A model generated the notes under the pieces. That model was not told the DNA's origin. It saw nothing but the letters and a program-made list of their open reading frames with translations, and did no database searches. Source: Apricaphanius iberus (taxonomy: Eukaryota; Chordata; Actinopteri; Cyprinodontiformes; Aphaniidae). From it: 64,000 nucleotides of DNA. A program made the translations under genes and the position numbers. Position 1 is the first letter of the stretch. Each line of letters opens with the position of its first letter. Below, piece by piece: positions 45,815-52,059 of the stretch. The stretch covers positions 712,501 through 776,500 of the forward strand of contig JAPXFQ010002690.1 in NCBI GenBank assembly GCA_028564705.1, given 5' to 3'.

Positions 45815-46200
45815 TATGGCAAGCCGAATGAGCATTTATTCTGATATCTTGATATCAGGCATGATTATCATGAACATGCAAGCCATTTCTGTCCACTAGT
45901 TAACTAGTGAGCCATGTTTGTGTGAACTAGTTAACTAGTGACAGCCAAAATGTCCACTAGTTAACTAGTCAGACCCAAATTCCCTCTAGTTAACTAGTTC
46001 TTATGTTTCGTGTCTTACTAGTTAACTAGTATTGCTCAGCATGTTCACTAGTTAACTAGTGCACATTTCAATGTGCACTAGTTAACTATTTAAAAGACGT
46101 TTATATTTTACTAGTCAACTAGTAAGGTACAAAAAAGTATACTAGCTGACTACTGAATGTGAAATTCTCACTTGTTAACTTCTACATAATTTGGCCAACT
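45815..46200 (+). repeat. Extra terminal block of the left arm (duplicated end)
   Basis: The CTGATAT..TTGATATCAGG segment near 45841 recurs at 46216, offset 375 bp. It is again followed by ACACGCCATTTTAGTCCACTAG and GTGAGCCATGTTTGTG. The right arm has one such terminus, and its body aligns with the left arm only from the second copy on. The left end is therefore a terminal duplication. Confidence 0.75.
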
Positions 46201-46695
46201 GCATGATAATTTGTTCTGATATATTGATATCAGGCCAACATACACGCCATTTTAGTCCACTAGTTAACTAGTGAGCCATGTTTGTGCACACTAGTTAACA
46301 AGTGAAGGCAAAAATGCCCACTAGTTAACTAGTGAACACATCTTGGCTTCACTAGTTAACTAGTGAGAGCTGTGAATGTCCACTAGTTAACTAGTAAATG
46401 CCAAAATGCATACCAGTCAGCTAGTTGAAGGTTTTATTGTCTCACTAGTTAACTAGTGGCAGTCAAAAATGTGCACAAGTTTACTAGTGAAGGCATAACT
46501 CCTCACTAGTTAAACTAGTTGGAGTAGGTCAATGTCACAAGTTAACTAGTGAAACATAAATGGCTTACAAGCTAGCTAGGTGATGGCAGCAGGCTCACTA
46601 GTTGATGCATCCTTTGTCCAAACTAGTTAACTAGTGAGGTCATAAATGTATACTAGTAAACTAGTTCAAAGCTAAATCCACACTAGTCAGCTAGT

Positions 46696-46840
46696 GGCGC
46701 AGAATTCTAATTAGGAGGTGGAGAATTCCTGAAATTGAGGCTTTCTATTGGCTCCCTATGTCCAAGTAATTTATGGCATCCAATCACAGTGCACAATTTC
46801 ACAAAATCCCACCCAAAACATTTGGATGTGCCACACAAGT
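46696..46840 (+). repeat. CCAAT-containing block inside the left arm
   Basis: This is non-palindromic sequence with AGAATTCTAATTAGGAGGTG, CTATTGGCTCC (an inverted CCAAT), ATCCAATCACAGTGCAC (a direct CCAAT) and ACAAAATCCCACCCAAAAC. It is copied in inverted orientation at 51366-51502. It is the only conserved interruption of the palindrome array. A promoter or protein-binding role is possible but unproven. Confidence 0.7.
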
Positions 46841-50004: not shown

Positions 50005-50095
50005 TGAGTCCGTGAGCATGATTTAATAAACCGAAGGAACGCATTAGGAATCCGTGCGCATGGTTTAGTAAACCAAGAGGGAACGTATTCCATAA
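50005..50095 (+). repeat. Two imperfect ~40-bp tandem units
   Basis: TCCGTGAGCATGATTTAATA with AACCGAAGGAACGCATTA is followed by TCCGTGCGCATGGTTTAGTA with AACCAAGAGGGAACGTATTC. The two units are alike with a small insertion. Confidence 0.7.
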
Positions 50096-50402
50096 TATCA
50101 GCGCTTCCACATCAACAGAAACAGACTACCGCTGCTTTCAGACTGCAGGCTTTTTCAGACTAATAACTGAAAAACTAAAGACTGTACACATTAACTGAAC
50201 GAAGATTACAGCAATGCACCACAACTTTGTCGCTAGAAATGTTATGAAAACATATTTTTAAGGTCAAACAATCTTAGTTTATAACATTTGCTCTAAGAAC
50301 AGCCTGGACGAAGTCAGCCATGCTTTCTAGAGTTTTGACTCCTAAATGGACCAATCAACATCCTTGTTCCGCCTTCTTCATTTGCATGCAAGTGCAACAT
50401 TG

Positions 50403-52059
50403 CTCACTAGTAAACTAGTGGCCAGTGTTGCAGTCCTACTAGTTAACTAGTAGCACAAAATGCCAGCCGTTTGTGTATTAATTCAAATTCCAATAGTTTA
50501 CTAGTGTGAGGGACATTTTCCTCCAGCTAGTTCGCTATGTACACTGTTTTGTCTTCACTAGCTAACATGTAAGGCTCAATTTGCCCTCTATAAGCAGCTG
50601 AAAGATATTATAATGCAGATATGCTCACTAGTTAACTAGTGAGTCTGTCATGTTCCCTTACAAGAGAACTAGTAAGGCCAAATATGTCAACTAGTTAACT
50701 AGTGAAGGCCAATTGTCACTAGTTAACTAGTAAGAGCACATTTTTGCATTACATGTTAACTAGATAGCTCCAAAAATAGCCACTAGTGTGTGTTTTGTGC
50801 GCACTAGTTAACTAGTGAGCTGCTTCACTGCCACACATGCAAACTAGTGAGACTTCAATTGTTCCACTAGTTAACTAGTGGACAAAAATGCTCCACTTGT
50901 TTGTGTTTTTAGGTGTAACTAGTTTACTAGTGTACAAAATATGCATGCCACTAGTTAACTAGTAAGGCCCCCAACACCTTACTAGTAAACTAGGGGGTAT
51001 TTTTGCCTTTACATGTTAACAAGTGACCATTTTGGCATCTCACTAGTTAACTAGTGGGCCTGAAATGGCCCTCACTAGTTAACTAGTGGGTGTTTTGGGG
51101 CTTACTAGTAAACTAGTGACACTTTTTGCACCTCACTAGTTAACTAGTCAAATGGAAATTGCCATCACTAGTTCACTAGTGGGCGTTTTGGGGCACACTA
51201 GTAAACTAGTGACACTTTTTGCACCTCACTAGTTAACTAGTGGACATTTGTATCTTCACTAGTTAACTAGTGAGCAGTTCTGCCTTCACTAGTTTACATG
51301 TAAGTGTCGTACTGAAGCCACTAGTTTACTAGCTAAAGTTCATTTGGCCAGCATGTTAACTTGTGTGTGACATCCAAATGTTTTGGGTGGGATTTTGTGG
51401 AATTATGCACTGTGATTGGTTGTCATATATTACTTGGACATAGGGAGCCAATAGAAAGACTCAATTTCAGGAATTCTCCACCTCCTAATTAGAATTCTGT
51501 GCCACTAGGTGACTAGTGTGAATTTAGGCTTGAACTAGTTTACTAGTATACATTTATGACCTCACTAGTTAACTAGTTTGGACAAAGGATGCATCAACTA
51601 GTTAACTAGTGAGCCTGCTGTCATCACCTAGCTAGCTAGTAAGCCATTTATGTTTCACTAGTTAACTTGTGACATTGACCTACTCCAACTAGTTAACTAG
51701 TGAGGAGTTATGCCTTCACTAGTAAACTTGTGCACATTTTTGACTGCCACTAGTTAACTAGTGAGACAATAAAACCTTCAACTAGCTGACTGGTATGCAT
51801 TTTGGCCTTTACTAGTTAACTAGTGGACATTTCTAGCTCTCACTAGTTAACTAGTGAATCCAGAAAGTGTCCACTAGTTAACTAGTGGGCATTTTTGCCT
51901 TCACTTGTTAACTAGTGTGCATATTTTGACCCTCACTTGTTAACTTGTTTACACAAACAAGGCTCACTAGTTAACTAGTGGACAAAAATGGCTTGCATGT
52001 TCATGACAATTGTGGTTGATATCAAGATATCAGAATAAATGTTCAATCGGCTTGCCATA
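50403..52059 (+). repeat. Right arm: palindromic array in inverted orientation
   Basis: From 50802 to the end, the units and spacers are the reverse complement of the left arm read from 47397 outward. For example, GAGCTGCTTCACTGCC, GGACAAAAATGCTCCACTTG and ATGCATGCCACTAG all have left-arm partners. Positions 50403-50801 carry about ten further, more degraded units that have no left counterpart. The block at 51366-51502 is the inverted CCAAT block. At 51597-51612 this arm keeps one more half-unit than the left arm (46592), an 8-bp slip difference. Confidence 0.9.
51366..51502 (-). repeat. CCAAT-containing block inside the right arm
   Basis: Inverse copy of 46696-46840, with TTTTGGGTGGGATTTTGTGG, TGTGATTGGTTG, GGAGCCAATAGAAAG and CACCTCCTAATTAGAATTCT. 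There are a few substitutions and small indels relative to the left copy. Confidence 0.7.

Follow-up and report, generated by a model that had tools for sequence, protein, structure and literature searches.

The element at positions 45815–52059 of the stretch analysed here (contig JAPXFQ010002690.1; a window of 64,000 nucleotides, to whose positions all coordinates refer) appears to be a non-autonomous IS3EU-superfamily DNA transposon with a foldback architecture, its inverted arms carrying an array of palindromes that would putatively be read by a transposase or a partner protein. Judged from sequence features, we give this reading a probability of about 0.55. The element is ~6.2 kb long, and the observations below come from this single copy in this single window.

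Ends of the element and proposed assignment to IS3EU

The element is flanked by a perfect 6-bp repeat, CTGAAA, at 45809–45814 on the left and 52060–52065 on the right, a match that would arise at two fixed flanking places by chance with a probability of ~3e-4 and that we take as a target-site duplication. Immediately inside it lie exact inverted copies of the 13-bp terminus TATGGCAAGCCGA, at 45815–45827 on the plus strand and at 52047–52059 on the minus strand, so that both the inverted ends and the flanking repeat claimed in a preliminary description of this DNA stand as described. The similarity extends over 43-bp end modules (45815–45857 and 52017–52059), which are identical at 41 of 43 bases. 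Exact copies of TATGGCAAGCCGA are confined to the two termini within the whole window, while at up to three mismatches there are 11 matches, the termini included, where 11.1 are expected by chance. When all TAYGG (62) and CCRTA (66) sites in the window were paired at distances of 60 to 15,000 bases, the element was the sole pair with a 6-bp flanking repeat. Windows resampled from a Markov model (n = 100) contained on average 0.43 such pairs each, and in none did a pair agree at 11 or more of the 13 terminal positions, the closest reaching 9.

Complete IS3EU families are described as invariably ending in TA..TA and as making duplications of 6 bp in most cases (PMC10045372), and a set from rust fungi combines 6-bp duplications with terminal inverted repeats (TIRs) of >30 bp and the ends TAYGG..CCRTA (PMC12730594). 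The element has TATGGC..GCCATA termini and CTGAAA on both sides, a 6-bp duplication being a trait common to Polinton and GingerRoot as well, and it agrees with the fungal set in its TATGG..CCATA ends and in the 41 of 43 matching bases of its end modules. The TATGG..CCATA ends together with the 6-bp duplication are the reason for grouping it with IS3EU. The superfamily is listed in fish, both in a survey of four teleosts (17,838 copies, 0.21%, in the one column filled, which is taken to be that of zebrafish; PMC4746887) and in the yellow catfish (PMC9945428). A DDE transposase of the IS3EU type was not detected, as the six reading frames of the loop between the arms (translated with X at stops) gave no Pfam match at E-values up to 1, and the element would therefore be at best a non-autonomous member. 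It also differs from known IS3EU elements in its kilobase arms of palindrome arrays, and the accessible parts of the open-access literature searched describe no IS3EU element with foldback architecture. Satellites with some IS3EU similarity or label are CgiSat35 and CgiSat47 in an oyster and TCAST10 in a beetle.

The palindrome array

Both arms are made of ~31-bp units, each centred on the 16-bp palindrome CACTAGTTAACTAGTG. At up to three mismatches the window holds 67 matches to this sequence, every one within the element (chance mean, 0.29), and at up to four mismatches there are 76 in the arms and 0 in the remaining 57.7 kb of the window. With five mismatches allowed, the arms have 82 and the remainder of the window 18; with six allowed, the arms have 86 (43 per arm), the loop 6 and the remainder of the window 95. 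Because the looser thresholds also match outside the arms, unit counts above four mismatches lean on position plus similarity. The array reported previously is thus real, and the figure of about 90 palindromes given for it is slightly high. The ~30-bp tandem periodicity is confirmed, since 67 of the 84 gaps of <200 bases between neighbouring units measure 30–32 bases and the mean spacing, computed without gaps of at least 40 bases, is 30.6 bases (standard deviation, sd, 1.3; n = 39) in the left arm and 30.9 bases (sd 1.1; n = 36) in the right. The outermost unit lies 79 bases from the end of the element, the same distance on both sides.

Across 82 units the core ACTAGTTAACTAGT is near-fixed, with a commonest base that reaches 0.82–1.00 in frequency at every one of the 14 positions, as against at most 0.57 at positions outside the 16-mer. 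Among 39 left-arm units, pairwise identity is 82% in the palindrome and 34% in the flanks (random, 27%). The same contrast is found between the arms, which were aligned over 46285–47397 and differ by 34 substitutions in 1112 columns: 5 of the 511 palindrome columns carry a substitution, as compared with 29 of the 601 remaining columns, a roughly five-fold difference in rate (Fisher p = 1.6e-4, and between 1.5e-4 and 1.7e-4 with units defined from either arm or from both). It persists when the palindromes are set against the array spacers alone (20 of 465 columns; p = 0.001), that is, after exclusion of a 137-base stretch free of palindromes, which itself diverges more between the arms (9 of 137 columns) than the palindromes do. 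Plotted by position within the unit, the mismatches are sparser over the 16 bases plus two on either side. The lower divergence of the palindromes suggests that they are protein-binding sites, of the sort found in the TIR repeats of Galileo.

Changes within the palindrome bear on whether it is its sequence or its pairing that is kept. Among the 656 half-site pairs of the 82 units, 113 carry a one-sided change and 14 a two-sided one, the latter comprising eight complementary and six non-complementary changes. Since the outermost half-site pair alone predicts ~9 two-sided changes under independence (by arithmetic from the position frequencies), there is no clear compensation between half-sites, and the pattern is more in keeping with half-sites bound by protein than with hairpins under selection. 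The folding predicted for the arms is strong (z = −9.7 for a typed two-unit model sequence and −9.4 for a 139-bp native stretch) because the units are palindromes. The same pairing accounts for the microRNA-type matches obtained with Rfam at a relaxed threshold, where the element gave 23 matches (22 to microRNA models and one to a bacterial small RNA model), all well under their gathering scores.

Exact two-unit arrays had no match in prokaryote genomes or in viral contigs, which has no bearing on fish; single 16-mers were found in two viral contigs, at one site each, and are taken as chance. As a text string, the core 14-mer was retrieved from one paper, which according to its abstract concerns how the replicative helicase of eukaryotes is loaded.

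Mirror symmetry and proposed history of the arms

Close mirroring spans only ~1.2 kb per arm, between the left palindrome array at 46190–47397 (plus strand) and the right array with its end at 50802–52059 (minus strand). The alignment is collinear, the count of 34 substitutions applying from 46285 inward, and it includes insertions and deletions (indels) of up to 32 bases. Differences of this number and kind argue against a fold-back artefact of assembly. Each of the 32 mirrored left-arm units has its closest sequence match in the right arm, ahead of every other left-arm unit: 30 differ from the closest right-arm unit at 0–4 of 31 bases and the remaining two at 11 and 12, as compared with 2–14 of 31 bases for the nearest unit inside the same arm. 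The unit-by-unit mirror of the preliminary description holds for these 32 units but is imperfect overall, the arms carrying unequal extra blocks.

On the left, an outer block at 45815–46189 (plus strand) consists of the end module and 10 palindrome units (at up to four mismatches) and shares 76% identity with the outermost right arm in an alignment of 376 columns. It is followed at 46190–46232 (plus strand) by a second, decayed element end within the left arm, which has 8 of the 13 terminal bases and 33 of 43 bases overall in common with the right end, and which retains the inner 19-mer TTCTGATATCTTGATATCA with one mismatch. On the right, an extra inner array of ~400 bp (50405–50801, minus strand) is more diverged and lacks a close left counterpart. 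The palindrome-free stretch of 137 bp noted above occupies 46697–46833 on the plus strand of the left arm and has its counterpart at 51366–51502 on the minus strand of the right arm. By eye, these stretches contain CCAAT-like motifs, and promoter-like motifs are seen in the arms.

We propose that a DDE transposase of the IS3EU type, made from a gene elsewhere in the genome, would have excised the element and joined it into CTGAAA, and that each 16-bp palindrome may serve as a dimer site for this transposase or for a partner protein. A repeat of ~31 bp amounts to about three helical turns, so the sites would lie on one face of the DNA. By analogy with the THAP sites in the long TIRs of Galileo, the array could raise occupancy and help to unite both ends, its first site standing 79 bp from each. 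Pairing of units across the arms and the collinearity of the alignment suggest that the array was built and diversified before the arms were copied: expansion of the array would have come first, and one arm would then have been copied whole onto the other, probably by gap repair or by arm-to-arm conversion. On the left, the decayed internal end and the diverged outer block point to the acquisition of a new end through recombination with a related copy. In the simplest history, the inner left end at 46190 would once have been the end of the element and would have fallen into decay when a related copy had provided a replacement, and later arm-to-arm copying would have stopped short of it. Taken as a whole, the picture of a vertebrate foldback family based on an integrase-like IS3EU transposase, with ~80 selected dyad sites forming a binding array across both arms, decayed spacers, recopying of whole arrays between arms, a DNA-binding module unlike that of Galileo and an origin separate from it, is one that we hold tentatively, at somewhat short of even odds.

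The loop

The loop was said to be ~3 kb long, in agreement with the ~3.0 kb found here (47398–50404), and it contains no recognisable coding sequence. By blastn it matches neither the arms nor the rest of the window. None of its seven open reading frames (ORFs) has a Pfam match above the cut-off; the lone match among them, to ERCC3 (E = 0.025), falls below its own cut-off, is missing from the six-frame scan and was rejected. The lone PDB match of the loop has an E-value of 0.68. Two ORFs that overlap CpG-rich patches gave no homologue in a search that covered proteins of similar length, in a database that may lack fish genes.

In each of the mirrored arms (46190–47397 and 50802–52059), 3 CpG are observed where 47–48 are expected, as against 62 observed and 96 expected in the loop (observed/expected, 0.65; 0.38 for the window). 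This contrast between CpG-poor arms and a CpG-richer loop suggests different histories, the arms having perhaps been methylated for long. The CpG-rich patches of the loop, at 47648–47897 and 49648–50147, contain 12, 14 and 12 CG per 250 bases and could be captured promoter-like DNA.

Other features of the loop include a tRNA-like A box (49921–49931) and B box (49878–49888), both on the minus strand, though ARAGORN found no tRNA gene in the window and Rfam called no tRNA in the element. Motifs of the form GGTTCTT/AAGAACC at 48983–49088 resemble a short inverted-repeat insertion.

Comparison with other elements with long repeated arms

With long inverted tandem-repeat arms around an unrelated loop, the element has the architecture of a foldback element, and even within this single copy the arms carry unequal extra blocks. 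The arms of Drosophila Foldback (FB) elements consist of 31-bp units. Target-site duplications are 9 bp for Foldback and 7–8 bp for Galileo and the P superfamily (7 bp for Galileo itself), neither of which agrees with the 6 bp found here. Sleeping Beauty and Bari-like elements make TA duplications and have few transposase sites per end, unlike the ~40 palindromes per arm of this element.

Foldback and Tetris elements share with it the variable number of tandem repeats in long inverted arms and a middle without apparent coding capacity. Tetris, a Foldback-type element, differs in its 220-bp units and in its duplications of 8–10 bp (PMC4079207), the latter again longer than the 6 bp of the element. 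Galileo has long inverted arms of 0.5–1.2 kb, which in some subfamilies contain internal tandem repeats; these repeats carry sites for the THAP domain, the outermost ~70 bp from the end, and its authors proposed that the repeats supply specificity while the ends assemble with higher-order multimers (PMC3688188). The same study, from 2013, called these sites the first demonstrated function for such very long arms (PMC3688188). Galileo is like the element in its long inverted arms with, in some subfamilies, internal tandem repeats bearing transposase sites, and unlike it in having its own P-type transposase with a THAP domain; the loop gave no match to such a transposase, though a non-autonomous copy would also lack one. 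The word stem 'palindrom' is absent from the main text of the Galileo study (PMC3688188). Sleeping Beauty and Bari-like ends resemble the element in that secondary transposase sites are repeated within longer terminal repeats (PMC3688188). The earlier proposal of an architecture 'convergent or related' to Foldback and Galileo can accordingly be narrowed: the foldback architecture stands and is convergent as far as the termini tell, whereas relatedness is not borne out, given the 6-bp duplication and the TATGG..CCATA ends.

Zebrafish repeats are well catalogued in Repbase and Dfam, and the family may already be listed in one of them. In the open-access literature, within the portions available, no foldback element is described from fish (PMC10045372, PMC12730594, PMC4079207, PMC4746887, PMC3688188, PMC9659126, PMC9945428, PMC8268682 and PMC5844308 among others), and in the corresponding portions of PMC5638112, PMC8277862 and PMC6431247 'foldback' refers to Drosophila elements only.

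Alternative explanations

Several observations weigh against the assignment and function favoured here. The superfamily call draws solely on the ends and the length of the duplication, no transposase was found in the loop, and neither a second copy nor an empty site was seen in the single window examined. The TAYGG motif derives from fungal families; moreover, Polintons make 6-bp duplications and GingerRoot combines TA..TA termini with 6 bp (PMC10045372). As to the palindromes, the between-arm test depends on 34 substitutions, and the choice of units by similarity together with ungapped flanks inflates the contrast of 82% with 34% and, to a lesser degree, that between the arms. Finally, sites read by a host protein would show the same conservation pattern, and this leads to the main rival, in which the element is of the IS3EU type but its palindromes bind a host transcription factor or chromatin protein and act as a promoter, an insulator or a platform for escape from silencing. 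A dyad-symmetric 14-bp core that recurs at near-constant intervals and is conserved where the spacers have diverged would suit such a role, as would arms far poorer in CpG than either the loop or the window. The symmetric placement of the outermost sites, 79 bp from both ends, and the retention of the array in both arms are instead what recognition of the ends predicts, and we regard the host-protein explanation as unlikely, although it is the strongest of the alternatives. We know of no host factor for the palindrome site, and none was searched for. Less probable by about half is an explanation by DNA or RNA structure, in which the arms snap back or the units form hairpins, these structures drive transposition, rearrangement or the production of small RNAs, and no protein reads the 16-mer. 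The strong predicted folding and the sub-threshold matches to microRNA precursors speak for it, the latter arising from the same pairing; the half-site pairs, with 113 one-sided changes and no clear compensation among the 14 two-sided ones, speak against it, and the sequence itself is conserved beyond its symmetry.

The IS3EU assignment could also fail at the level of the superfamily. Polinton and Dada make 6-bp duplications too, the loop holds no transposase and assignment by termini is indirect, so a transposon of another or undescribed superfamily could show a 6-bp duplication and TA..TA ends by chance. Five terminal bases per side, the length of the end module and that of the duplication all match the fungal IS3EU set, however, and we rate this possibility between the two preceding ones. 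True membership of the Drosophila Foldback or Galileo/P families is suggested by inverted arms of ~31-bp tandem units, the unit length of FB, around an unrelated loop, but appears highly improbable in view of a duplication of 6 bp, as opposed to 8–10 bp in Tetris and 7–9 bp in Galileo and FB, and of a loop without a P or NOF coding match. Equally remote is the possibility that there is no mobile element here and that a local satellite, or a fold-back artefact of assembly, accounts for the structure: one copy in one window leaves room for it, but the fixed ends, the perfect duplication, a loop that is unrepeated in the window, the 34 substitutions and several indels between the arms and their unequal extra blocks all oppose it.

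Surroundings and significance

An exon-like ORF at 2398–2826 (plus strand) has as its best solved relative an immunoglobulin domain of TrkC, the neurotrophin-3 receptor (E = 4.6e-30), followed by TrkB (2.5e-18); it indicates that the host is probably a vertebrate, and the element, 43 kb downstream, possibly lies within the same gene. A fragment matching eukaryotic 28S ribosomal RNA at 23443–24135 (plus strand; model positions 24–664, 92.6 bits) aligns closely only over ~23660–23850, and its end adjoins a minus-strand ORF (24138–24629) that by eye resembles the C-terminus of a reverse transcriptase of a long interspersed nuclear element. A 243-amino-acid ORF at 29730–30461 (plus strand) looks by eye like a Tc1-type transposase; a pair of 13-mers in inverted orientation, flanked by an AT repeat, lies at 29248–30647.

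Why some transposons have kilobase arms of tandem repeats is an open question. The element is a naturally occurring case of a dyad site arrayed in tandem and, if the reading of it as an IS3EU-type transposon with transposase-read palindromes is true, the hypothesis that binding-site arrays are what drives foldback architecture would become testable with a second, unrelated transposase in fish cells.

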